From Haloactinospora alba (GTDB taxonomy: Bacteria; Actinomycetota; Actinomycetes; Streptosporangiales; Streptosporangiaceae), in contig NZ_VFQC01000002.1 of assembly GCF_006717075.1 (NCBI RefSeq), positions 186,001 to 250,000 of the forward strand: a stretch of 64,000 bases of DNA, in the 5' to 3' direction. Position 1 is the first letter of the stretch. Each line of letters begins with the position of its first letter. This document shows positions 118 through 14,483 of the stretch, one piece after another. The notes beneath the pieces are model-generated. The model was not told where the DNA came from. It saw only the letters and a list, made by a program, of their open reading frames with translations, and made no database searches. The translations under genes were made by a program, and so were the position numbers.

Positions 118-2718
118 TCATTGATTGGTGACTGTGAACGCGGGAGTGTCGTGCGGTGCGCGATCGCGCAGGATCTCGGCGAGTGCGGCGATGCGCCGTA
201 GTGGTATCAGGTCCACCTCGGGTAGGGGTGCTTCGTCCAGCAGGCTTCTCATCGCGTAACGGATCGCTGTGGATAGGGGTGAGTCTTCCAAGACCTCGTC
301 GTAGAGCAGGTGGTTGTCGCGTTCGGCGGTGAGTCGGTGATGATTGCGCTCCAGTTGCCATCCTCCGGGCGCGGTGACGGGCTCGAGGTGCAGGGTGAAC
401 CGGGTGTTACCGGTTTCCAGACGGACGTGGCGGTGCCGGTCGTCAGCGGTGCGGATATCGCGGCGCCAGGGTGAACGTGGTTGCGGTGCCGTTCCGAGCA
501 GGATGCTGGGGCCAAGGATGGAGGAGGCCAGTTCCAGACGGGTGCGACCCTCGCTGGGATGGTCGAGAGTGGTGCGCTCGGTGAGGGCGGCGACGAAGAG
601 CCGCGGGTCGTAGGTAGCCCAGAGTTCCGCTGCCTCGGGTATGGAGGCGAAGTAGGCCTCGACGAGCGGGGCGGGGAGAACGCGGGACAGCACCGCGAGC
701 ATGTGCAGCCATTCGTATCCCAGGACTCCGTAGGTGCGGTCGATGAACCGCCCGTTGGCGATGTCGGCGGTGCGGTCCTTGGTGAAGGTGATCGCTGCGT
801 GGGTGATGGGCGCCTGCCCTTCGTATTCACGCAGGAGGTCGGTGAAGGCGGGGAGCACGGTGGAGTGTTGGTATTGGTCGTTGACTAGGACCCGTGCGCG
901 AGGATGGGTAGCCAGCAGGCTGGTGAACTCCTCGATCTCGTGCCCCTGACAGGCGGGTTTCTCCACAAGCACACGGGCGGCGGGGTTGTGCTCCAGCACG
1001 GCGCGCAGCACTGGCAGGTGATCGGCGGTGGGGCAACAGATGGACCACAGGTCGATCGCTGCGGCCCGGACGGTGGGCAGGTTGGCGACGTCGTGCGGAA
1101 AGGAGTGGTGGCCCTTGGGGACATCCTGGTGTTTGGGGTCGATGATCGTGATGTCAGCGCCCAGTTCGGTGAGGATCTGGGTGTGTAGGCGGCCGGCGTT
1201 GCCATAGCCCACGACGCAGGCGTTGACCTGGCGGCGCTCTCGCGTTGTCATGCCTGTGGTCTTGGGGCACTGGGTGGGATGGGCGAGGTAGCGGTCGTAG
1301 TAGGCATCGAAGAGCCCAGCGGCTTCGATCGCCGCGTCGGCGGGGTCCCGGTACAGGCCGGGCGGGATCTGATCGGCGTTGGCGCACAGGTGTTTGGCGG
1401 CGATCAGGGTGCCAGCGCGGTAGGCGTCGTATCCCTGATTGGGGATCGAGTCGGCCTCGAAGAGGTTCATCGAACGACCATCACCGAGCAGCACCACCGT
1501 GTTGCCGCCTGGGAGGCGAACGCGGCGTCCGACGCCGGGGATGTCATGGGTGGAGGATGTGGTCTCGGTCAGGATCGAGAAGTCGCGGGTGGCGAACGGC
1601 GCTAGGAACACGCCGTCGGACAGGAAGGACAGGTCGTCACCGGTCAACGCTTGCTCACCGGTGGTTCCGATGATCAGGAACGGATCGGTGACGCGCAGAG
1701 CGTCAGGGGTGCTGCGGTGAGTGGGGTATCCGGCTTCGGCGGCGGCGATGAGGGAGGGTAGGTCGGTGTCGAGCACGTCGACACGGCAGCCCAGTCCGCG
1801 CAGTGCTGGTGCCAGGCGGCAACCGAGCGTGCCGTAGCCGATGAGCAGGACCTGGCGGCCGATGAACTTGCGGTCGCCGATGAGGGCGCGCAGGCGGCGC
1901 AGGCAGGAGTCGGCGATCTCTGGGTAGCCCAGCGAGGTCTTGGTGTGTGAGCGGGCCATGTTCAGCACCGGGATGGCCAGTGGGCCGGCCTGGGTGATGC
2001 GCTTGATGCCGCTGACAGTGAGTTCGACCGCCGCGTCCACCCGCCGTTCGGCGTCAGGGGCGCCATAGCCGCGGGCGATCAGACCGCCGTCGTCGACGAC
2101 GAGGACCTTGCGCCCCGCGGAGTGCGCGGTGTCGATGAAGGCGTCGAGGGTAGCGGTGACGTCGGTGAGTTCGGCGCCGTGGGCCTCTGGGGTGTTGATG
2201 GCGGTATTGTCGAGTAGTCCGCTGCGGTATCCCCGGGTGTGGAAGGTGGCGTGGATCCGTTCCCGGTTGTAGGTGCGGTCGCCCTTGGCCAGAGCGAAGA
2301 TCCATTCCGGGGGTATACCGGCGCGTTCCATGGCTAGGAGGAACCCGACGCTGTGCTCGAGGTAATGGTCGCGAAACAGCAGCGCCCAGTCGTCCAGGGC
2401 GGGATCGGGATTGCTGTAGTGCGCCAGGAGGGGCATCGCGGTGGTGATGCCCTCGATCTCGGATTCGGTGTAGGGCAGGCGCAAAGTATCCAGGTGCTCT
2501 CCCAGTTCCCGTGTCGCCTCCGAGGTGTCTCCGGGACCGGCCTGAATGAGGATCTCAAGGTGTTCTGGCGGTGTGAGTTGGTGACCCACCGTGTGGGGAG
2601 GTTGGGGCGGAAGTGGTTTCCAGAACACGCTCACCGCTGAGGACTCCGTATCGGAGACGACGAGGCGCATCGCGTCGTCGCTTTCCTGTTGGATGGTGAG
2701 GCCGTGATTGGCGGCCAC
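118..2718 (-). CDS. SAHH-like / Gfo-Idh-MocA fusion oxidoreductase
   Basis: 866 residues from a GTG start; a second possible start (ATG) lies 16 codons in. Residues about 200-445 follow the S-adenosylhomocysteinase plan: VDDGG (208-212), VELTVSG (231-237), a Lys at 260 in the catalytic-loop region, the NAD loop GYGTLG (294-299) and a TTG motif (352-354). The histidines of the canonical NIGHFD and GHPS motifs are not visible (APFATRDF and EADSIPN stand there), so AdoHcy hydrolysis is doubtful. Residues about 498-760 are a Gfo/Idh/MocA oxidoreductase with GYGNAG (504-509) and EKP (586-588). The C-terminal 100 residues are unassigned. Last gene of the minus-strand operon; 134 bases separate it from the kinase gene before it. 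It may act on a sugar or cyclitol intermediate. That the domains are fused is read directly; the substrate is unknown. Confidence 0.8.
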   Translation of the reverse strand: MAANHGLTIQQESDDAMRLVVSDTESSAVSVFWKPLPPQPPHTVGHQLTPPEHLEILIQAGPGDTSEATRELGEHLDTLRLPYTESEIEGITTAMPLLAHYSNPDPALDDWALLFRDHYLEHSVGFLLAMERAGIPPEWIFALAKGDRTYNRERIHATFHTRGYRSGLLDNTAINTPEAHGAELTDVTATLDAFIDTAHSAGRKVLVVDDGGLIARGYGAPDAERRVDAAVELTVSGIKRITQAGPLAIPVLNMARSHTKTSLGYPEIADSCLRRLRALIGDRKFIGRQVLLIGYGTLGCRLAPALRGLGCRVDVLDTDLPSLIAAAEAGYPTHRSTPDALRVTDPFLIIGTTGEQALTGDDLSFLSDGVFLAPFATRDFSILTETTSSTHDIPGVGRRVRLPGGNTVVLLGDGRSMNLFEADSIPNQGYDAYRAGTLIAAKHLCANADQIPPGLYRDPADAAIEAAGLFDAYYDRYLAHPTQCPKTTGMTTRERRQVNACVVGYGNAGRLHTQILTELGADITIIDPKHQDVPKGHHSFPHDVANLPTVRAAAIDLWSICCPTADHLPVLRAVLEHNPAARVLVEKPACQGHEIEEFTSLLATHPRARVLVNDQYQHSTVLPAFTDLLREYEGQAPITHAAITFTKDRTADIANGRFIDRTYGVLGYEWLHMLAVLSRVLPAPLVEAYFASIPEAAELWATYDPRLFVAALTERTTLDHPSEGRTRLELASSILGPSILLGTAPQPRSPWRRDIRTADDRHRHVRLETGNTRFTLHLEPVTAPGGWQLERNHHRLTAERDNHLLYDEVLEDSPLSTAIRYAMRSLLDEAPLPEVDLIPLRRIAALAEILRDRAPHDTPAFTVTNQ

Positions 2719-2852
2719 GTCCGTCGCGGCGTTGAGGACCTGGGGGCGGGGTAACCGGTCCGCGCAACACGCGCCATGCGTGACGGGAAGACCCGGCTGG
2801 CGGGCGAGTCATGAGGCTCCTCGGCTGGGTGGAGGTGATGGTGCGAGGTCTC

Positions 2853-3896
2853 TTACCGGCGAGTGATCTCGTCGAGGGCCGCCTCGGCATGGTCGAGCTG
2901 GGCCAGCAGCCGGTTGCTGGCACGGTGGCGCAGCAGCCAGAAGTCGTCCAGGTCCTTCTGGTACAGGCCCGGTTTGCGGTAGTGCTGCTTGACGCCATAC
3001 AGGCTCCGCAGCAGTTGCAGCAACGCCACACGGGCACACGCGCGCACGTCCTCACCGCGCACCGCGGGGTTGGTGTCCAGGTAGGCGGCGACGAGGCGGG
3101 AGGCCGCGGTGATCCAGTTCTCGTCGAGGACCACGGTGCGCGGGTCGAAGGCGATACGGCCGAGTTCGTAGGCGATCAGGAAGGGCTCGGGTGGGCGGAA
3201 GTCCGTCACCGCGCTCAGGCGCTCGCCGTCGAAGAGCAGGTTGACGGCGCTGTAGTCGCCGTGTAGCACCTGGGTGGTCATCACGGGCAATCCGTCCAGC
3301 AGGGCGGGGACCTCCCGTAGAGCATGGCGTCGTTCGGTGAGGGTCTGTTCGGCGAGATGGTCGAAGTCGTCGCGGTGGTCCCGCTGGGCGACGCGTTCCA
3401 GCAGGTCGGTGATCGTGTCCTCGATCCCGGTCACGTCGGGGTGCAGCCAGGTCTCCAGCTCCGGCGACGTCCTCGCGCTGTCGGGGTGGGTGGCGAAGGC
3501 GTGGTGGATGCGTCCCAACGCCGCACCGGCGGCCTCCTGCTGGGCGGGGGTGAAACCGTCGGTGACGGTATGGCCCCGCACCCATTCCCACACCGACACC
3601 GCTACGTTGTCGCGGTGGCTGATCGCCTGCCCCTGGCGTGTACGCACCAGACCGGGGGTGGGTACCTCGTGGCGCGCGGCGAGGTCGGTGAGGTCGATCG
3701 CTTGGGACTCGGCGTCCAGGTCCGTCCCGGCGGGGTAGTGCTTGACGAAGTAGTCACGCCCCCGCCAGGCCGCTCGGTAGTTCACCGTGCCCTGACCGAT
3801 GGGCAGCCGGGTCACCTCGGCCTCTCCCATGGCGTAGTCCTCGGCCAGGGTCGCCAGGATGGTCTGGTGCGTCTCGGCGGTGGTCGGTTCGCTCAT
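2853..3896 (-). CDS. Aminoglycoside phosphotransferase-like (APH/choline kinase fold) kinase
   Basis: 347 residues from the ATG at 3896, which has a GGAAGGA site upstream; an ATG at 3941 would add 15 residues. The kinase fold is shown by VLHGDYSAVNLLF (catalytic loop HGDxxxxN) followed by VTDF for the metal-binding Asp, and by an N-lobe LPIGQGTVNYR that resembles the family's glycine-poor nucleotide loop. Such enzymes phosphorylate hydroxyls of sugars, aminoglycosides, choline or homoserine. In this operon, next to a glycosyltransferase and an oxidoreductase, a small-molecule kinase role (pathway step or self-resistance) is more likely than a housekeeping one. Substrate not deducible. Confidence 0.8.
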   Translation of the reverse strand: MSEPTTAETHQTILATLAEDYAMGEAEVTRLPIGQGTVNYRAAWRGRDYFVKHYPAGTDLDAESQAIDLTDLAARHEVPTPGLVRTRQGQAISHRDNVAVSVWEWVRGHTVTDGFTPAQQEAAGAALGRIHHAFATHPDSARTSPELETWLHPDVTGIEDTITDLLERVAQRDHRDDFDHLAEQTLTERRHALREVPALLDGLPVMTTQVLHGDYSAVNLLFDGERLSAVTDFRPPEPFLIAYELGRIAFDPRTVVLDENWITAASRLVAAYLDTNPAVRGEDVRACARVALLQLLRSLYGVKQHYRKPGLYQKDLDDFWLLRHRASNRLLAQLDHAEAALDEITRR

Positions 3897-3977
3897 CGCG
3901 GATGATCCTTCCGGTGGTAGCTCTGGATAATCGGTGGCCACGCTAGCGTCGGGAGGTGACAGACGGCAGTGTCTTCG

Positions 3978-5009
3978 CTACGTCGAGGTAGGTCGCCATG
4001 ACGTCGCGCCAACCGTGGCGCCGATTGGGGTGGGGCTGTGGCCAGGTGCGCTCCTCGGCGGCAGCGAGCGCCTGTCCCGGTCCGGCGGCGGGGGGTAGAG
4101 CAGACGCGGGTGTCCGTCGGTGATCTCCCGGATGGAGGGAAGATTGGGGGCGACGACCGGAACGGCGAACTCGACCGCGGTCGCCACCGACGAGGGGAAG
4201 AGGGCCCGGGAGAAGAACTCCCAGGACCCGTCAGCGCGGTAGGGACACAGGGCTACATCCGCCGACCGGTACAGCGCGGTGATGTGCTCGGGCGCGATGC
4301 GCCCCAAGCGCACCTGGACACGGCCGTCACTGTTATCCGCCGCCGCCAACAGCTCTCGGGCCAGGTCCTCCTGGGGGCAAGGACCGACGAGGAACAGGCG
4401 AGAGGATCGGCTATTACGAAGAAAAGCGTCGAGGACACCTCGAGGGTCTTTGTAGGGCGTCATGTTGCCCAACATCAGTACCGACATGGAATCACTCGTC
4501 ATACGGGCGGCCAGCTCCGCGACCGGTCGTGTCACCGGTGCCGTTGACGCGGTGATTCCGCCCCATCCGGCCACGATGACTGGCGTGTCGGCCAGTCGAC
4601 GGATGTGGGCCGCGTCGGCGCGGGTATGAGTGATGATCGTATCCGCCAAATCGAGGACACCGCGGGCGGCCAGACGGTCGGCCTCACAAGGAGGGGTCCC
4701 ATCTATCGGCAGCAGGTTATGGACGGTCCACACCACATGCCATCCGTCTCGACGCAGTTCGGTCAGGCGACACAGCATCCGCTCGGCGGCGTTCGCCGTG
4801 CGGGTGCCCTCGGCAGTGCGATAGAGGCGCTTGAGGCGGTGTAGGTTGATCACGCCGCCGCCATCGTCACGGGTGAGGCTGTCCAGGTCAGGACTGAACT
4901 CCAGAGCGAGTTCGGTAGGAGCGTGCCGGGCCATTTCGGCGAAATACGGGCTGGGCCAGGCCGGATAGGAGGTGACGACCACCCACGGCCGCACGGATCC
5001 GCCGCTCAT
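3978..5009 (-). CDS. GT-B glycosyltransferase, 3' end frameshifted
   Basis: Read from the ATG at 5009, whose ATGA overlaps the stop of the gene before it. The product resembles a group 1/GT4-type glycosyltransferase: N-terminal VVVTSYPAWPSPYF, a mid-protein nucleotide-sugar half with LMLGNMTPYKD, LFLVGPCPQ and a C-terminal ALYRSADVALCPYR followed by the acceptor/donor region SSVATAVEFAVPVVA. After LLYPP the reading frame becomes low-complexity and stops at 3978. In the next frame the strand continues as ALAAAEERTWPQ, then WRDVMATYLDV, to a stop at 3953-3955, which looks like a genuine glycosyltransferase C-terminus. One extra base in the six-G run at 4090-4095 would restore it. Part of the orphan operon; sugar donor and acceptor unknown. 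Confidence 0.75.
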   Translation of the reverse strand: MSGGSVRPWVVVTSYPAWPSPYFAEMARHAPTELALEFSPDLDSLTRDDGGGVINLHRLKRLYRTAEGTRTANAAERMLCRLTELRRDGWHVVWTVHNLLPIDGTPPCEADRLAARGVLDLADTIITHTRADAAHIRRLADTPVIVAGWGGITASTAPVTRPVAELAARMTSDSMSVLMLGNMTPYKDPRGVLDAFLRNSRSSRLFLVGPCPQEDLARELLAAADNSDGRVQVRLGRIAPEHITALYRSADVALCPYRADGSWEFFSRALFPSSVATAVEFAVPVVAPNLPSIREITDGHPRLLYPPPPDRDRRSLPPRSAPGHSPTPIGATVGATSWRPTST

Positions 5010-5800
5010 CGCGTCGCTCCAGTGCGCGCGCGAACTCGGGCCCACCAAGCGAGCGCTGAGCGGTAACGATCCAGGCACACTCGGGGGCTGCGATCCGTAC
5101 CGGTCCACTCCAGTGCCACCTCCATCGCCCGTCCCTGTGCCACGCGGCGCGCGGCCAGCGTGGCGATCTCCTCCCGCTCCGGGTGTGTCAGCCCGGTCCC
5201 GTCATCCGAGAGGTGCACGACCCTCGACCAGTCGAGTACCGCAGCGGCGATACCGCGATCGCCCCCACCCGCTAGGGCCGCACCGAGCTGGGCGGTATCG
5301 GCCAGTAACCGCACTCCTCGATGGCGCCGCATCAGCGCCACCAAGGCGGTGAAGGCATCAGGATCCAACCAACGCGGGTGGTGGAGTTCGACCAGCAACG
5401 GCAGGGACGCGGTGGGAAGGACCGGATCGCTTGGCAGCGCATGCGCGCGGGTGAGCGGGGCTCGGGCGAGCAGGCGTACCCATCGCGCTCCCAGGCGGTG
5501 GGCCGCTGCACAGAGCTGACGCACCTGTTCCCACGCGGCCCTGCGGGTGGGCTCATCTCCCGTTACCAGATCAGCCAGGTCGACATCGGCCGTCACTCCC
5601 GTAACCGGCACGCTGTGACGCGCTACCCGCCGCCAGTGTTCAAGCTGGCCCGGAGAACGGTTGACGAGGTCGACACCGCGCGGACCGCCGCGCAGGTGGA
5701 GGAAGGGGATGGCGTTCTCGTTCGCCCATACCAGCAGGTCCTCCACCTCGAACCCGCGCACCGAGATACTGTAGACACCCACCGGGTCAGCCTTAACCAT
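5006..5800 (-). CDS. Xylose isomerase-like TIM barrel protein
   Basis: 264 residues. The pattern of short hydrophobic strands (VGVYSISV, IPFLHLRGG, PVTGVTADVD, ARWVRLLAR, LPLLVELHHPRW, VRLLADTAQLG, RVVHLSDDG, EVALEW) matches the AP endonuclease family 2/sugar-phosphate isomerase barrel. Glu in VELHHP, Asp in ADTAQ, His in VHLSDD and the late Glu in EVALEW are plausible metal or acid-base residues. Start overlaps the dehydrogenase stop by 8 bases; its stop overlaps the glycosyltransferase start (ATGA), so it is translationally coupled on both sides. Likely isomerises or epimerises a sugar or inositol-like intermediate. Function inferred from fold only. Confidence 0.75.
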   Translation of the reverse strand: MVKADPVGVYSISVRGFEVEDLLVWANENAIPFLHLRGGPRGVDLVNRSPGQLEHWRRVARHSVPVTGVTADVDLADLVTGDEPTRRAAWEQVRQLCAAAHRLGARWVRLLARAPLTRAHALPSDPVLPTASLPLLVELHHPRWLDPDAFTALVALMRRHRGVRLLADTAQLGAALAGGGDRGIAAAVLDWSRVVHLSDDGTGLTHPEREEIATLAARRVAQGRAMEVALEWTGTDRSPRVCLDRYRSALAWWARVRARTGATR

Positions 5801-6698
5801 CGCTGCTCCAGTCGAAGAGGATCACCGGCTCCGGCTGGCGCCGCTCCGGCTTGGTCAGGGAGGCGAACTCCTCGGGGGCGCGATCCCCTGGGACCGTGCG
5901 GCACAACGAGGTCACGAACTCCGGTTCCAGCTCGGTTGCCAACCACCCGACGGCTCTGGTGTAGGCCTCCCCGTAACGGCCGGGATGGTGACCGGCGAGT
6001 TCGTGCATGCCGACCAGGGTCCATCCCTGCCGGTGTGCCTGCGCAGCGGCGATGGTGGACGCCTCGCCGGGAGTTCCCAGCAGTCCGAGGACTCCGCCGG
6101 CAGCAAGCGTCGACGCCGCGCGTTCGGGGGCGCCCACGGCGTCTATGACCAAGTGCGCGGCTCCGCCTCCGGATTCGATGTGCGTTGCGGGAAGGCGTCC
6201 GATAGCCGCTCCGCGCCGCGCGGTGCGTACCCGGACCTTGCGAGCACCCCGCCGATATAGTCCCAATGCGCACCCCACGGCGACCGGGCCAGAGCCGAGC
6301 ACCACGGCCCCATCCAGTTCCACGCTCGCCGGGAGACGATCCAGACCGAGCACGGCCATCTGCTGGAACCGAGCCAACGCCGCCACCTCAACCGAGGCGC
6401 CCGGCGCACAAGCCACGGCCCTGGGATGGTCCGGACAGAACGCCGCACCATGGGGGACCGGCGCCACTATCCAACTACCGTCACTGCCACGTGCCAGGTT
6501 CATGTAGCCCGCCTCACGCGCTGGACCGGAGGCGGTCGCGGCCAGGTGGCGGCGTTCGGTCCCCGGGCTAAGGACACTGACGCACGCGGTAACGGACCCC
6601 CGCGGGACCGGCCGCGGAGACAGGAGCTCGGCTCGCCCACTGTTCAAGAGCACACGGGCGCCGTGATGCGTGGGGACGGGGGACATTTCAGATGCCAT
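5793..6698 (-). CDS. MDR-family dehydrogenase without catalytic zinc ligands
   Basis: 301 residues, starting 6 bases after a GGAGG; an alternative ATG lies at 6686. N-terminal half carries VLSPGTE, the signature of MDR proteins in which the usual Cys-zinc site is absent; the Rossmann half has VVLGSGPVAVGCALGL and later GGVLGLLGTPGE. Proteins of this SPGTE type occur in polysaccharide and pigment pathways, sometimes fused to a Gfo/Idh/MocA domain; here the Gfo domain is instead fused to an SAHH-like domain at the end of the operon. Probably an NAD(P)-dependent oxidoreductase of the pathway intermediate. Overlaps the HAD gene by 11 bases. Confidence 0.8.
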   Translation of the reverse strand: MASEMSPVPTHHGARVLLNSGRAELLSPRPVPRGSVTACVSVLSPGTERRHLAATASGPAREAGYMNLARGSDGSWIVAPVPHGAAFCPDHPRAVACAPGASVEVAALARFQQMAVLGLDRLPASVELDGAVVLGSGPVAVGCALGLYRRGARKVRVRTARRGAAIGRLPATHIESGGGAAHLVIDAVGAPERAASTLAAGGVLGLLGTPGEASTIAAAQAHRQGWTLVGMHELAGHHPGRYGEAYTRAVGWLATELEPEFVTSLCRTVPGDRAPEEFASLTKPERRQPEPVILFDWSSDG

Positions 6699-7392
6699 AG
6701 CGGTCCTCCAGGTAGGCCGGTAGCTCGGCGAAGCGGTGAAGCACCCCGATCCGCGAATCCAGGCCGTGCGGGCGGCCGTCCGAGGCGATCAGGACGGCCA
6801 TCATGTCGTGGGCGCGCGGCCCGCTCGCATCCTTTGCGGGCGTATCGCCCACGAAGACGATTTCTTCAGGATCGACCCCTGCCGCCGCGATCACCGCGGC
6901 GTAGAACCGCGGATGCGGTTTGCGCCACCCCAGCTCGCTCGACAGCACCAGGGCATGGAAGCACGATCCGATACCGGCCCTATCCAGCGTGTGACGGCGA
7001 ACTGTCTCCGGACGCTGGGTGTCACACGCCAGCACACACCGCAAACCCGTGTGGTGCAGCCGTCGTAGGGCACGGGCCGCCTTGCCGTCGATCCGGCCAT
7101 CCGGGAGCGAGGAGAACACGGCCTCACTCGCGCCGTCCGGATCGGGCAGGTGAACGCCGCACTGGCTCGCGGCCGTGGCCAACACCCGGGAGAACGGGGT
7201 GTGGGCGCCACTGGCGCGGTCCTCGTGCCAAGCGCGGTGATGGGCGGAGTCGAACGCGGCGGCGAATTCTTCGGGCAGCCGCAAGCCGAGATCACCAGAG
7301 AGCACCCACGCGACCATGCTTCCTTCCACACGCGGGGCGGAATGGGACAGTGTGCCCCCGCAGTCGATCGCGAGAGCGCGAATCCTCGCCAT
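6688..7392 (-). CDS. HAD-superfamily hydrolase with altered motif I
   Basis: 234 residues. Order of motifs: AIDCGGTL (motif I, residues about 8-15), a helical cap, VLACDT (motif II region), WRKPHPRFY (motif III Lys) and IVFVGDTPAKD (motif IV). In phosphatases motif I is DxDx(T/V); here the second Asp, the general acid/base, reads Gly. The nucleophile Asp and metal-binding Asp are kept. DxGGT-type HADs exist, so the protein may still be active with a different chemistry or act as a very slow phosphatase. Position between the kinase-like genes and the dehydrogenase suggests removal of a phosphate put on by an operon kinase. Confidence 0.8.
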   Translation of the reverse strand: MARIRALAIDCGGTLSHSAPRVEGSMVAWVLSGDLGLRLPEEFAAAFDSAHHRAWHEDRASGAHTPFSRVLATAASQCGVHLPDPDGASEAVFSSLPDGRIDGKAARALRRLHHTGLRCVLACDTQRPETVRRHTLDRAGIGSCFHALVLSSELGWRKPHPRFYAAVIAAAGVDPEEIVFVGDTPAKDASGPRAHDMMAVLIASDGRPHGLDSRIGVLHRFAELPAYLEDRYGI

Positions 7393-7410
7393 GCTGGGTG
7401 TCCTCTCTAC

Positions 7411-8274
7411 TCAGCTCGTGGGGATGGCCAGACGCTCCACCTGGTCAGCGACCCCCGAAGGAGAGCCCCGGAGGGCGGACAGGGGTAGCGTTCGGGCAAG
7501 CGCACGCACGAGTCCAGCGCGTCGTCGCACCGCGTCAGCGTCCTCGACGTGACGCAGCACCATGTCCGACCGCTCCAGCACCCGGTCGATGAGGTGCGCA
7601 CTGGCCCGCAGCCACACCGTGGCGGCCGTATGGGAATCCACCCTCTCCCGATGGCCTTCGCTCGCTGCGGGATCACCATCCACATCGACTACGGCAGCAG
7701 CCACTACCCGCCTTGGCTCACCGGATCCGCTCCCATCGGTGAAGTCCGCGCATCCCGCGAGGTCGAACTTCTCCGGCCCGTCCGCGTCCACACCCAACTG
7801 TGGGAACCATCGTCGTACCGGTGCGCGGCGAACCACGAACGCCCTGGTCCCACCTCGGACCCGAGGAGGTCCGTTAGACGGTGTGGTGTCGAGGAGGGTG
7901 ACGTCACCGGAAATCACACGCCAACCGCGCGCTGTCAACGCCATAGCGGTCACGGACTTGCCGGCCCCGTGTCCCCCCAACAGCAGAACCGCCTCCCCAG
8001 TGCTGGGATGTTCCAGGGTCGTGGCATGCACGCTGAGCGTGTCGTGGCGCAGGTGAAGTCGGTGCAGGGAAGCGTTGATCAACCGCCGCGTGTCGTGTGG
8101 GCCAAGGGCGCTAGGGACAGTGAGGTCGGCCCTCATATCGGCGATATGGGCCATCCCGTCCGCGCTGGCACCGGGAACGTGGCTACTCATGTCCGGCCAC
8201 CAAGCTGCGAGTTGGCCAGGCGCCACTACAACCAGTTCCCGGCCGGCGCTGTCCACACGGAAGGTGTGTCGCAT
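7411..8274 (-). CDS. HPr kinase-like P-loop protein (second of pair)
   Basis: 287 residues; start fixed by the TGATG overlap with the preceding gene's stop. The HprK/P-type fold is suggested by SVHATTL, then LLLGGHGAGKS (Walker A, residues 100-107), and WRVISGDVTLL (121-127), which stands where HPr kinases have the LVADD strand. Only one Asp of that pair remains. HprK-like proteins outside sugar regulation phosphorylate peptides (for example lasso peptide tailoring kinases) or small molecules. No lasso or other RiPP genes were seen near it. Forms a coupled pair with the next gene. Confidence 0.7.
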   Translation of the reverse strand: MRHTFRVDSAGRELVVVAPGQLAAWWPDMSSHVPGASADGMAHIADMRADLTVPSALGPHDTRRLINASLHRLHLRHDTLSVHATTLEHPSTGEAVLLLGGHGAGKSVTAMALTARGWRVISGDVTLLDTTPSNGPPRVRGGTRAFVVRRAPVRRWFPQLGVDADGPEKFDLAGCADFTDGSGSGEPRRVVAAAVVDVDGDPAASEGHRERVDSHTAATVWLRASAHLIDRVLERSDMVLRHVEDADAVRRRAGLVRALARTLPLSALRGSPSGVADQVERLAIPTS

Positions 8275-9359
8275 CACCGCCTCCCGAACTCCGGCAGTAG
8301 CGGCGCCAGAACCTCCCATACCGGGGCATGTGCGAGCCTCACTGCGTCACCGACCGTGAGGAGCACCGCCGGCACTTCCCACAACCGTTCCTCCATCTCG
8401 AACGATTCCTCACCCAGGGCGGAACGAAGGCCACCCATCAGGCCGACCAGATCGCTGACGAACAACCGTTGCGCGGGGACATCAGCGGCCTTCGCGACGA
8501 AGCTTTCCCGGGAGGGAGCGGCGAGCACGCTAGCGTGGACGACGGGATCAACGGCGGAGGAGTGAGGGCGCAGGCACACCAGGGCACCCAGCGGCACAGG
8601 CGGTGAGTGGTCCATGCCCAACATGAAACGGTGCTCCGCGGGAGTGAACACGACCCGCTCCCGCCGCTCTCCCGTCAGCATCACCCCGGACGTCTCGCTG
8701 GTGTTCTTGAGTAACTCCGCCGGAACAGCGGCTCGCGTCGGCCACCCCACCACCATTCCCTCGTTTGAGACCAGTACCAGATCATCCGCGAGAAAGTCAG
8801 CGCCAAGCTCTACGCAGGCGCGATGGGCTAGTGTGGACTTCCCGCCACCTTGATCAGCGAGAATCAGTACCGCTTTCCCATCGAGTACGACCGCCGAGGC
8901 GTGCAGCATCCGCCAGCCGCTAGCCAGTAGGCGCGAGGCGAAGAACACCCGCGCCACGTAGTCGGCCCACCTCATTACCTCGGGTTTCCCGACGGGAAGC
9001 AGAAGCCGGGTGAGGCATTCGGCCGTACGTACTTCCAGACGCACCGCAACGCTGTTCGGCCGATACCGCCCAACCGCCTGCAGCACCCCTGCCGCCTCCC
9101 TCTCGATAGCAAGCTGCGGCCCACCCTGCGGAAACGACAGCACAGGACGGTCGGTGAATATCCCGTCAACTTCCTCATCGGCCAGCGCGACCATGTTCTC
9201 CAGGTTCAGTCGCCAGTCCGGCATCAGGGCGCAAGGCGCCTTCCGGCATGGCGGAACCATCACCGCAGACACGTGCTCGGTTAAATCGCTTAGTTCTGAG
9301 ATGACCGCCAGACGAATATCGGTGAGAGCCAGATCAATACCGTTTTCGGTTGATGACAT
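8274..9359 (-). CDS. HPr kinase-like P-loop protein (first of pair)
   Basis: 361 residues from the ATG at 9359. Residues 1-130 are a novel N-terminal region. Then MLHASAVVL, LILADQGGGKSTLA (Walker A 168-176) and ADFLADDLVLV (ADD at 191-193), the order typical of HprK C-terminal kinase domains. Unlike its neighbour it keeps the full ADD pair, so it is the better candidate for an active kinase. It overlaps the second HprK-like gene by one base, implying fixed stoichiometry or a heterodimer. First gene of the eight-gene operon, starting only 23 bases after the upstream small gene. Confidence 0.75.
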   Translation of the reverse strand: MSSTENGIDLALTDIRLAVISELSDLTEHVSAVMVPPCRKAPCALMPDWRLNLENMVALADEEVDGIFTDRPVLSFPQGGPQLAIEREAAGVLQAVGRYRPNSVAVRLEVRTAECLTRLLLPVGKPEVMRWADYVARVFFASRLLASGWRMLHASAVVLDGKAVLILADQGGGKSTLAHRACVELGADFLADDLVLVSNEGMVVGWPTRAAVPAELLKNTSETSGVMLTGERRERVVFTPAEHRFMLGMDHSPPVPLGALVCLRPHSSAVDPVVHASVLAAPSRESFVAKAADVPAQRLFVSDLVGLMGGLRSALGEESFEMEERLWEVPAVLLTVGDAVRLAHAPVWEVLAPLLPEFGRR

Positions 9360-11879: not shown

Positions 11880-12899
11880 GTGGCCGATGACGCCGGGGAG
11901 GCCGAGCACGCCTACGGCCTGCTGGAGATGGACGACCAGCTGATCCACGCGCGGGCGGTCCAGATCGTCGCGGAACTGGGCATCGCCGACCTCCTCGCCG
12001 ACGGCCCCCGCTCCTCGGAGGAGATCGCCGCGGCCACCTCCAGCGACCCGGACGCCTGCTACCGGATGCTGCGCATGCTGACCACGCGCGGCATCCTCAC
12101 CGAGACCCGGCCCCGAACCTTCGGTCTCACCCCGCGGGGCGGCCCCCTGCGTTCCGACCACCCCTACAGCGTGCGCCACACACTGCGGCTGAACGGCGCC
12201 GTGGTTCCGCTGGTCATCGACGGTGCCCAGCACAGCCTGCGCACCGGGGAGCCCACCCTCCCCGCCGTGACAGGCGAGAGCTTCTACGAGCACCTGGAAC
12301 GCGAACCCGAGCACGCCGCCCTGTTCGACGCGGCGATGTCCGAACTTACTCGGGCGATGCTGCCCAGCCTGCTGGCGGCCTACGCGTTCACGGGCCACGT
12401 GGTCGACGTCGGCGCGGGCACCGGAACGCTGCTGCGCGGCATCCTGCGCGCCACCCCCGCCGCCTCGGGAACCGCCTTCGACACTCCCCGCCTGACCGAG
12501 TCCGCCCGGGAGGCGATCCGCCGCGACGGGCTCGAGGACCGCTGCGTGTTCACCGGCGGGGACTTCTTCACCGAGGTGCCGCCGGGAGGCGACCTCTACG
12601 TGTTGAAGTGGGTACTGCACAACTGGCCCGACGAGCAGGCCGCGGCGATCCTGCGCCGGTGCCGCCAGGCCATGCCCGACCGCGCCCGGCTTCTGGTCAT
12701 CGAGGCCGTGCTGCCCGAACCCGGCACCGACGCCCCCGGCCCGGCCGCCACCATGGACGTGTCGATGCTGGTCGTGCCCGGCGGGCGCGAGCGCACCGAG
12801 GAGCAGTACGCCGCGCTGCTCGCCGACGCGGGATTGCGCCTGCAACGTGTCGTGTCCGCCGGTTCCCGCAACAGCGTCCTCGAGTCCCGCCCGGTCTGA
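11880..12899 (+). CDS. SAM-dependent O-methyltransferase (acetylserotonin OMT-like)
   Basis: 339 residues from GTG 11880, preceded by GGGGG five bases upstream; an upstream in-frame GTG at 11790 gives a poor N-terminus. N-terminal dimerisation/winged helix (ADLLADGPRSSEEIA, MLRMLTTRGILTE), then the SAM site VVDVGAGTGTLLRG and the late motif LYVLKWVLHNWPDEQ, with the family's His/Asp acid-base pair plausible there. Such enzymes methylate phenolic hydroxyls. It is next to a SnoaL-like protein and a type III PKS, so a resorcinol or pyrone product is a plausible substrate. Confidence 0.85.
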   Translation: MADDAGEAEHAYGLLEMDDQLIHARAVQIVAELGIADLLADGPRSSEEIAAATSSDPDACYRMLRMLTTRGILTETRPRTFGLTPRGGPLRSDHPYSVRHTLRLNGAVVPLVIDGAQHSLRTGEPTLPAVTGESFYEHLEREPEHAALFDAAMSELTRAMLPSLLAAYAFTGHVVDVGAGTGTLLRGILRATPAASGTAFDTPRLTESAREAIRRDGLEDRCVFTGGDFFTEVPPGGDLYVLKWVLHNWPDEQAAAILRRCRQAMPDRARLLVIEAVLPEPGTDAPGPAATMDVSMLVVPGGRERTEEQYAALLADAGLRLQRVVSAGSRNSVLESRPV

Positions 12900-12923
12900 A
12901 CCATCCGTCGGGGCAGCCCGGAC

Positions 12924-13397
12924 CTATCCGGCGCCTCCGGGGTGCCGCTTTCCCTCGTCGAGCCACACCGGTGTGACGTCGACCGTGTGGATGCGCCAGC
13001 GCCCCTCCTCGCGCCGGTAGGTGTTGTCGTACCACCCGCCGACCGACCACCAGTCGGTCGGGTCCTGGTCGCTGCGCAGGTGGACGGCGTGCAAGTAGGA
13101 GCGCGAGGTGGCGGTGTCCCCCTCACCGCCGGCGTCCCCGTCCTCGCGGACCTCGATCTGGTGGTTGGTGCTCATGTGGTGGGTGCGGTGGTAGCGCCCC
13201 AGGTCGGCGGCGACGAACGCGGCTAACCCCTCCCGCCCCTGGTGCTGGGCGCCCGGGAGCCGCAGCAGGCAGTCCGCGGTGAACAGGCGCGCGTATCCGA
13301 CGAAGTCGCGTTCGTCGAGGCATCGGGCGAACTGGACCAGTAGGTCGCTGATCTCCGCGCGTTCCAACAGCAGGCGCAGCCGGGCGTCGTCGCTCAC
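12924..13397 (-). CDS. SnoaL/NTF2-like protein
   Basis: 157 residues of the NTF2-like cone fold (SnoaL_4 type): EISDLLVQFARCLDERDFVGYARLFTADC (start of fold), HHMSTNHQIEV, WWSVGGWYDNTYRREEGRWRI. Members are dehydratases, cyclases or isomerases of polyketide and steroid pathways, or have no known activity. It is transcribed with the type III PKS upstream (36-base gap) and convergent to the methyltransferase (24-base gap). Confidence 0.8.
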   Translation of the reverse strand: MSDDARLRLLLERAEISDLLVQFARCLDERDFVGYARLFTADCLLRLPGAQHQGREGLAAFVAADLGRYHRTHHMSTNHQIEVREDGDAGGEGDTATSRSYLHAVHLRSDQDPTDWWSVGGWYDNTYRREEGRWRIHTVDVTPVWLDEGKRHPGGAG

Positions 13398-13433
13398 AAC
13401 GGCTCCCTCCCCGTTACGCAGGGTCGCCTCGGC

Positions 13434-14483
13434 TCACTCGCCCCGTAACAGGGCAGTGTAGAGGGTGAGTCCGGGCCCGAAAGTCATGGCCACGCCGTGC
13501 TCGCCGGAAGGAAGCGGACGGTTCCGTTGCAGTTCCGCGAGGACGATCGGCAGTCCGGCCGAGGAGCAGTTGCCGTATTCGGCCAGCACAGCGCGGGACG
13601 TCACCGTCGCCTCGGGGGTGAGGGACAGGCTCTCCTCGGCCGCGTCGATGATCTTCCGCCCGCCGGGGTGGATCGCCCACCAGTCCACGTCCGCCGGTGC
13701 CAGCCCGTGGGGGTGGAGCAGGGCACGCACGACCTCGGGGAGGCGCAGGGCGATCAGTTCGGGGATGCGGGACGACAGTCCCATCGGGAAGCCGGTGTCG
13801 CCCACCTCCCACGTCATGTGCTCCTCGTGCTCCACGTCGGTGTAGGAGGCCGTGTCCACCACGGCCGCCCCGCCCGGTGGAGCGTCCGGGCCCCGCAGCA
13901 CCATGGCCACCGCGCCGTCGCCGAATAGGGAGTTGATGACGAGCTGCTCGACGTCCCACGGCGGCGGTTGGAGGTGCAGCGAGGACAGCTCCACGTTGAG
14001 CAGCACCGCCGGGTGCGGGTGGCAGCGCACGAAGTCGGTGCACACCGCCAGCCCCGGCAGCGCCGCGTGACACCCCATGTGTCCGACGAACAGCCGCTGG
14101 GTGGCCGGGGACATCCCCAGCTCGCTGATCAGCCGCGAGTCGACACCGGGGCTCTGGTACCCGGTGGAGGAGACCGCGCACAGGTGGCCGACCCGGCCGG
14201 CGTCGACGCCGGCGTCGGTGAGGGCGTCCGCGACGGCGTCCCTGGCCAGCGGGAGCGCCTCCCGCTGGAAGCGCCGCATCCGCTCCCGGGTTCCCCACGA
14301 GGAGACGTCCTCGCTCTCGGGGTCGACGGCCAGGCGACGCCACCGGATTCCGGAACGGTCCAGGAGTTTGTGCAGCACGTCGGTGTTGCCGTGCCCGGCC
14401 GGCAGCAGCTCGGGCAGGCGCTCCTGCGCCAGCGCCGTCTGTGGGAAGGCCGTCCCGATTCCGGTGATCCGCGCCGGTGCCAT
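13434..14483 (-). CDS. Type III polyketide synthase
   Basis: 349 residues, a usual length. The thiolase-fold triad is visible: Cys138 in GHMGCHAA, His272 in WAIHPGG and Asn305 in EYGNCSSAG, plus the NSLFGDGA motif (184-191). The Cys-His-Asn set with the GNCSSAG loop fits chalcone/stilbene synthase-like enzymes more than KAS III. Starter and chain length cannot be told from sequence. It would condense malonyl-CoA to a resorcinol, pyrone or naphthalene product, then possibly modified by the SnoaL-like protein and the O-methyltransferase. Confidence 0.88.
   Translation of the reverse strand: MAPARITGIGTAFPQTALAQERLPELLPAGHGNTDVLHKLLDRSGIRWRRLAVDPESEDVSSWGTRERMRRFQREALPLARDAVADALTDAGVDAGRVGHLCAVSSTGYQSPGVDSRLISELGMSPATQRLFVGHMGCHAALPGLAVCTDFVRCHPHPAVLLNVELSSLHLQPPPWDVEQLVINSLFGDGAVAMVLRGPDAPPGGAAVVDTASYTDVEHEEHMTWEVGDTGFPMGLSSRIPELIALRLPEVVRALLHPHGLAPADVDWWAIHPGGRKIIDAAEESLSLTPEATVTSRAVLAEYGNCSSAGLPIVLAELQRNRPLPSGEHGVAMTFGPGLTLYTALLRGE

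Follow-up and report, generated by a model that had tools for sequence, protein, structure and literature searches.

A fused Her4–Her5-like enzyme in a kinase-rich actinomycete operon, a candidate pathway for a C–C-coupled nucleoside

The window analysed here, a stretch of 64,000 nucleotides from Haloactinospora alba (contig NZ_VFQC01000002.1, positions 186,001 to 250,000), opens with an operon of eight minus-strand genes at 118-9359, designated A to H from the most upstream to the last. We consider that this operon probably encodes a specialised-metabolite pathway for a C–C-coupled, high-carbon-sugar nucleoside, with the product of gene H as entry enzyme and phosphorylation as tailoring. Judged by its sequence, H is a homologue of both Her4 and Her5 of the herbicidin pathway and has active-site signatures in common with the two.

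The gene set is a real, rare and conserved biosynthetic unit. It is not a chance assembly, since its content and mostly its order recur across actinomycete genera, with a rearranged version in two Roseobacteraceae loci. An earlier note, drawn up from the letters of this DNA alone, had described the eight genes as an orphan, kinase-rich small-molecule operon combining enzymes of phosphorylation, dephosphorylation, redox chemistry and glycosyl transfer with a TIM barrel. The list of open reading frames (ORFs) and the domain scans bear out the eight genes, and the domain matches support that description.

A fused homologue of Her4 and Her5

Gene H (118..2718, minus strand) encodes a fusion protein in which residues ~1-490 are Her4-like, with the fold of S-adenosylhomocysteine hydrolase (SAHH), and residues ~497-866 are Her5-like and of the Gfo/Idh type. 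The earlier note had already seen an SAHH-Gfo/Idh fusion at this place, and its two halves can now be assigned to Her4 and Her5. The N-terminal half is 52.5% identical to L076_9 (Her4) and the C-terminal half 39.3% identical to L076_10 (Her5). These reference proteins come from Streptomyces sp. L-9-10 (L076), which an excerpt of PMC6794829 gives, together with S. scopuliridis RB72 (L080), as a herbicidin strain. The table in that excerpt describes hcdB/anmB/her4 as an SAHH homologue of 558 aa and hcdC/anmC/her5 as an oxidoreductase of 372 aa, followed by a radical SAM protein (435), an oxidoreductase (370), a methyltransferase (286), a beta-lactamase (540) and an O-methyltransferase (367). The L076 genes, of 559, 360, 435, 368, 286, 542 and 368 aa, fit this her/hcd table in both size and order. 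According to the same excerpt, anmB-E are the four genes required for the aureonuclemycin tricyclic core.

When aligned with SAHH, H and the Her4 rows retain the LHM histidine, DDGG, the first glutamate of EETTTG and the lysine of TK, and they are alike in replacing the second glutamate of EETTTG (by leucine), the DN pair and the histidines of GHFD and GHP. The SAHH catalytic set (Asp/Asn of TK.K.DN, histidines of GHFD and GHP) is replaced in 14/14 operon-type and 9/9 Her4-type rows printed. The SAHH reference of this alignment is the SAHH of the window's own genome, and two rows are apparently the same ORF from overlapping loci and amount to one comparison. The C-terminal half of H has EKP.C, QY, KDR..GRF and YGxxGYEWLHM in common with Her5 and not with Her7, which gave no match to this half at E 1e-3. 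Part of the same half is matched at 41-44% by two solo Gfo/Idh proteins (L105:9273-10307 and L100:10001-10573), which carry a GYE(Y/W)(F/L)HM signature and lie outside both the operon-type and the herbicidin-type clusters.

The two halves also diverge in step. Their distances correlate at 0.93 over 37 pairs (L061, which has no cut point, being omitted), a value inflated by shared ancestry that was reached in none of 999 permutations; the correlation is 0.91 for the 16 fused and 0.97 for the 21 split cases. In a tree of the N-terminal half, Her4-type and operon-type sequences stand apart, and the Roseobacteraceae sequences and the split copy of Kitasatospora mediocidica fall among the operon-type.

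The predicted model of H has a pLDDT of 78 and a pTM of 0.50, and its N lobe falls on SAHH structures, the top match having a TM to target of 0.75. Against the SAHH family itself the protein scores 58.8 bits, for a cut-off of 497.6. A role of H as the housekeeping SAHH was ruled out, as the window's own genome has two other SAHH genes over the family cut-off, adjacent to each other at G000:C1:333128-335824.

Distribution and conservation of the operon

The order was surveyed in 297 genomes, of which 13 encode a fused H-type protein (a broken one in G086) and two more carry split herbicidin-type pairs (G131, G036). At E 0.001 all 297 genomes match H, which we attribute to genuine SAHH and further relatives. 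Profile searches run independently of this (E 1e-20) located the first HprK-like kinase (HprK1, gene A) and the MDR oxidoreductase (gene D) in 13 genomes each, the same 13, and always inside the operon. Across the phylum, a survey of 396 genomes returned the MDR (E 1e-15) from the window's own genome only, and H (E 1e-60) from that genome and as one solo Her5-like protein.

A scan of named genomes with two peptide patterns, whose counts are a lower bound, gave at least 53 loci: 28 operon-type, 24 herbicidin-type and one solo. The operon-type loci belong to Streptomyces, Kitasatospora, Streptosporangium, Planotetraspora, Sinosporangium, Nocardiopsis, Actinomadura, Microbispora, Haloechinothrix and Catenulispora, as well as to a Micromonosporaceae strain, the metagenome-assembled genome (MAG) of an unclassified actinomycete and two Roseobacteraceae (Pseudoruegeria and a Phaeobacter MAG). 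Because the gene caller, designed for high-GC DNA, mis-called some genes (for example in the Roseobacteraceae loci and L067), the operon architecture was taken from tblastn and hidden Markov model searches.

Gene content was counted with profile searches in the 27 loci whose surroundings are complete, the window included; contig-truncated L048, L060, L082 and L097 and the remnant L071 are omitted, L072 and L077, two contigs of a single genome, are joined, and duplicate genome copies of named loci are counted once. All 27 have D, E and G as well as the two halves of H (H being broken in L047 and split in L073). Gene B is likewise present at all of them, although it is a remnant in L047 and gives only weak matches in the Roseobacteraceae pair. 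Gene A or its relative A' (E <1e-12) occurs at 25 loci and is missing in L059 and L073. Genes C and F occur at 16 loci each, F in L058 only as fragments; 14 loci have both and nine have neither, with C without F in L069 and L098 and F without C in L058 (the fragments) and L064. A strong A' (E <1e-170) is present at 8/9 loci lacking C and F and at 0/18 others.

Ten loci keep all eight genes in the order A-H (the window, L036, L041, L053, L055, L056, L057, L061, L062 and L068), with frame splits in C of L041 and in G and the start of H of L053, and with F and G within one frame in L036 and L062. The order is also kept in L039 and L047, where A is interrupted and B decayed, respectively. Elsewhere, L073 has a split H and a second copy of G, L059 carries G-H ahead of B-F, and the Roseobacteraceae order is GSCFA-H-A-C-D-E-G-B. 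The scattered occurrence that the earlier note had named as its refutation was thus not encountered, the neighbourhood recurring with conserved content and mostly conserved order. Some copies are decaying: HprK1 of L039 is interrupted by about 1.6 kb, L047 has a remnant of the second HprK-like gene and a broken H, and L071 is a remnant in which H, in two frames, is accompanied by a fragment of G alone.

Kinases and other accompanying enzymes

The domain assignments of the earlier note hold for all eight genes, yet A, B, D and E score under the Pfam curated cut-offs. These calls are upheld by the predicted structure of A, the PDB profile match of D and the invariant metal-type residues of E. 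All genes lie on the minus strand.

Gene A (8274..9359) has a weak HPr_kinase_C match (E 0.0033) along with HprK_rel_A/FomB matches. Its AF2 model (pLDDT 84.8) matches HPr kinase over residues 147-360 and superposes on 1ko7 with Z 11.5 and 3.1 A over 132 residues, so that the predicted structure is of the HprK/PEPCK P-loop kinase fold. The P-loop GGKST and the DDL that follows it are invariant in 14 sequences; a PDB profile search with A gave no match at E 0.1. Gene B (7411..8274; ORF open to 8319, likely start 8274), a second HprK-like kinase, matches HprK_rel_A at E 7e-8 and has a P-loop G.HG.GK invariant in 18 sequences, its PDB profile search returning borderline P-loop and HprK matches only (E 0.04-0.07). 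As HPr(Ser) kinases, A and B miss the curated family score, with 16.5 and 19.1 bits versus 240.

Gene C (6688..7392), an optional member, encodes a HAD-superfamily phosphatase (Pfam Hydrolase, 4e-16). Gene D (5793..6698) encodes a short MDR oxidoreductase with an SPGTER motif (ADH_zinc_N, E 0.0081); its profile matches the alcohol dehydrogenase 8wwd at E 1.7e-5, the cofactor motif G.GPVA.G is invariant in 18 sequences, and no zinc-ligand pattern was seen by eye in the aligned sequences. Gene E (5006..5800) encodes a xylose-isomerase-like TIM barrel (AP_endonuc_2, E 8.9e-5) whose residues E138, H140, D168, H196 and E231, of metal type, are invariant in 20 sequences; it also has a weak profile match to DgpC1 (9m3b, E 0.0053). 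The second optional member, gene F (3978..5009; ORF open to 5108, likely ATGA start 5009), encodes a GT4-type glycosyltransferase (Glyco_trans_1_4, 2.3e-10), and gene G (2853..3941) an APH/homoserine-kinase-like kinase (APH, 3.2e-17).

Proposed pathway

Her4 and Her5 are said to perform an atypical C-glycosylation, reportedly described by Chen et al. in 2022, and their net reaction is reportedly the C5'-glycosylation of ADP/ATP by UDP/TDP-glucuronic acid along an SAHH-like route. We know of no SAHH-like chemistry outside herbicidin-type pathways that couples a sugar to a nucleotide through a C–C bond. The sequences themselves show homology, a common active-site pattern, gene linkage, co-occurrence and partner exclusion; from homology we infer the chemistry, the step order and the identity of base and sugar in the present operon. 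Starting from a nucleoside 5'-di- or triphosphate, the SAHH-like half of H, with bound NAD, would oxidise the 3'-OH of the ribose and eject the 5'-phosphate group to yield an electrophilic 4',5'-ene-3'-ketone. C5' would then be linked through a carbon–carbon bond to a sugar supplied by a nucleotide-sugar donor, and the Gfo/Idh half would complete the redox step to give a C5'-C-glycosylated, undecose-like nucleoside.

After coupling, the MDR enzyme (D) and the metal-type TIM-barrel isomerase or epimerase (E) might take the place of Her6, a B12 radical-SAM enzyme, and of Her7, a further Gfo/Idh protein. The APH kinase (G) and the HprK-fold kinases (A, B) would phosphorylate intermediates or the product, and the optional pair C and F could strip a phosphate and add a sugar. 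At loci without C and F, the extra HprK-like kinase A' that most of them possess may represent an alternative tailoring. In Kitasatospora humi (L077), A' is followed by a radical SAM protein, a weak AKR match and a carbamoyltransferase, which fits a small-molecule product.

More tentatively, such C–C-coupled nucleosides may form a second widespread class, made across actinomycetes and Roseobacteraceae with a fused C-glycosylase and with two to three HprK-fold small-molecule kinases and an APH kinase replacing the B12 radical SAM enzyme; interchangeable glycosyltransferase/HAD and extra-kinase modules would then lead to different products. A compact operon with both coupling activities fused, present in at least ten genera, would provide a new enzyme for nucleotide-sugar C–C chemistry and a defined gene set for expressing the predicted nucleoside-like compound. 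It also offers a test of HprK-fold kinases acting on small molecules.

Alternative readings

The earlier note had expected a phosphorylated or glycosylated sugar or cyclitol. Without a nucleoside, H would act as a sugar-phosphate oxidoreductase-eliminase, E would isomerise, D reduce, and the kinases and glycosyltransferase decorate. All the accompanying enzymes are of types common in sugar pathways, and the operon has no nucleobase-handling gene; in addition AgmF of the angustmycin A pathway, a nucleoside-sugar dehydratase related to SAHH in which D188 and H299 are essential, is able to eliminate on a sugar (PMC8599513, excerpt). Both halves of H, however, match the nucleoside-pathway pair Her4/Her5 (cyclitol enzymes were not compared directly), and this homology favours C–C coupling of a nucleotide and a sugar, and hence a high-carbon-sugar nucleoside rather than the cyclitol, which we regard as unlikely. 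The activity of AgmF, as given in that excerpt, also indicates that the SAHH family is capable of new ribose chemistry in antibiotic pathways, and H might act on a nucleotide in another SAHH-like manner, for example by an AgmF-like dehydration or by forming a C–O ether linkage in place of C–C coupling. The differences between H and Her4 in the putative nucleoside pocket would agree with this, but the SAHH-like half is paired with a Gfo/Idh partner that resembles Her5 and co-varies with it, and the AgmF positions given in the excerpt as essential appear by motif mapping to be changed in H and Her4, so that an AgmF-type dehydratase is improbable and a different reaction of H is, all in all, a slightly weaker candidate than the cyclitol. 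Modification of a ribosomally synthesised and post-translationally modified peptide (RiPP), phosphorylated by the HprK-like proteins, would resemble the peptide systems in which such kinases occur. A C39-peptidase ABC transporter in a divergent operon adjoins L069 and is conserved at L098, and an M16 peptidase and NTP_transf_5 adjoin the K. mediocidica locus. Yet the core enzymes are of small-molecule types, and no short ORF common to at least three loci was found in the flanks of 21 operons, compared over as much as 900 bases on each side, a comparison that diverged or distant precursors would escape and in which the window's downstream flank is just 117 bases and some contigs end early. We hold peptide modification to be very improbable. 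Among the Pfam hits to the operon genes there is no polyketide synthase, nonribosomal peptide synthetase or terpene family, as the earlier note had claimed.

Several points weigh against a C–C-coupled nucleoside as the product. Besides the shared ancestry behind the half-versus-half correlation, the branch to the 21 operon-type rows of the N-half tree reaches an SH-aLRT of 90, short of the threshold of 95, and a branch that sets off the Her4 rows on one side receives support 0. Near the position of the GHP histidine H reads NLFEADSIPNQ where Her4 reads NLFEYEGIANR, and LAPF versus LAGF is a further systematic difference; since these local differences lie near the putative nucleoside pocket, the base or the sugar may differ. 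The residues D188 and H299 of AgmF, known from the excerpt cited above, seem by motif mapping to be without counterpart in H or Her4. No nucleotide-sugar gene is found within the operon.

Layout of the operon and neighbouring loci

Four junctions of the operon overlap (A/B TGATG, C/D 11 bases, D/E 8 bases, E/F ATGA) and three are gaps (B/C 18 bases, F/G at least 36, G/H 134, with the most upstream listed start codon used). The earlier note gives the same junction types; its count of five overlaps is one too many. H looks to be the last gene, the ORFs past the window edge (L003) seeming unrelated by eye. Over its first 12 kb the window has a G+C content of 62-69%, versus mostly 70-75% further on, single 2-kb windows going down to 58%. 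In a consensus scan of the same 12 kb, neither sigma-70-like promoters nor terminators exceeded chance. Adjoining the operon, window positions 11880-14483 hold O-methyltransferase-like, SnoaL-like and ketosynthase-III-like ORFs, assigned by eye, which may form a small cluster of their own.

A third SAHH-like family, 29-31% identical to the N-terminal half of H, was seen in three genomes of the same family (L101, L102, L103), in operons that include two methyltransferase-like genes. In the naming of the L101 scan, L101 and L103 additionally have an aldo/keto reductase, an Exo_endo_phos protein and a B12 radical-SAM protein, and the divergent regulator of L101 is 66% identical to a regulator beside the L058 operon. 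A genome of the same class as the window's encodes a solo Her5-like Gfo/Idh protein of 353 aa with 36-39% identity (L113:9701-10762), with no SAHH-like or operon gene in the surrounding 19.9 kb. The K. mediocidica locus (L073:864-5090) has M16 peptidase and NTP_transf_5 genes on its flanks, together with DUF2334-family genes assigned by similarity to L068, and the operon-type locus of Pseudoruegeria (L069) lies at 3524-8338.

Comparison with known systems

Compared with HPr kinase/phosphorylase, HprK_rel_A and FomB, the products of A and B are alike in the P-loop kinase fold (A) and in weak profile matches, and differ in scoring 24-32 bits where the curated cut-offs are 200-400. Gene E resembles DgpC, a subunit of C-glycoside deglycosidase, an enzyme that cleaves C-glycosides: the match is weak, and the E.H and D motifs agree. 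It is also partial, with a marginal E-value, and may reflect a common TIM-barrel core alone.

H has in common with canonical SAHH the fold, the LHM histidine, DDGG, the first glutamate of EETTTG and the TK lysine, and is set apart by an identity of about 16-20% (over 50 listed structure alignments) and by the replaced catalytic residues. AgmF and H are alike as SAHH relatives recruited to nucleoside-sugar chemistry in an antibiotic pathway, proven for AgmF in the excerpt of PMC8599513 and predicted for H. As far as that excerpt goes, AgmF is a stand-alone dehydratase that retains the canonical catalytic residues, whereas H is a fusion in which, by motif mapping, the Asp and His essential in AgmF seem to have no counterpart.

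Literature searches, which did not cover the main herbicidin papers, returned no characterised cluster with the whole eight-gene set, and a search on hikizimycin biosynthesis indicated no gene cluster in titles or abstract starts. The statement of the earlier note that no described pathway has this set stands for the set as a whole; it had missed the link through H, a Her4-Her5 homologue. Homologues of the entry enzyme are thus already characterised, and what appears to be new is the pathway built on it, unmatched in the searches made.

In place of the tailoring genes of the herbicidin/aureonuclemycin systems (her/hbc/hcd/anm), the operon has HprK-like, APH, MDR, TIM-barrel, HAD and glycosyltransferase genes. 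We compared the two locus types by tblastn (E 1e-5), here with 27 operon-type loci other than the window, L072 and L077 counted apart (26 genomes). All 24 herbicidin-type loci have a Her6-like gene and 23 of them have Her7; four (L088, L089, L091, L095) carry their sole Her6-like gene upstream and on the opposite strand, and the L095 sequence ends 87 bases past the Her5 match. Her6-Her11 were detected in none of the 27 operon-type loci, which have neither the B12 radical SAM Her6 nor Her7, the methyltransferases, the serine hydrolase or the P450 of the herbicidin pathway; in the window's own genome the best match to Her6 has 26% identity only. Conversely, A-G were detected in none of the 24 herbicidin-type loci, H alone matching. 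By these counts, a Her4/Her5-type pair is common to both systems and the downstream sets are mutually exclusive. H is like Her4 and Her5 in being the homologue of both enzymes, in their active-site signatures and in coupled divergence, and unlike them in being one fused protein within the operon.

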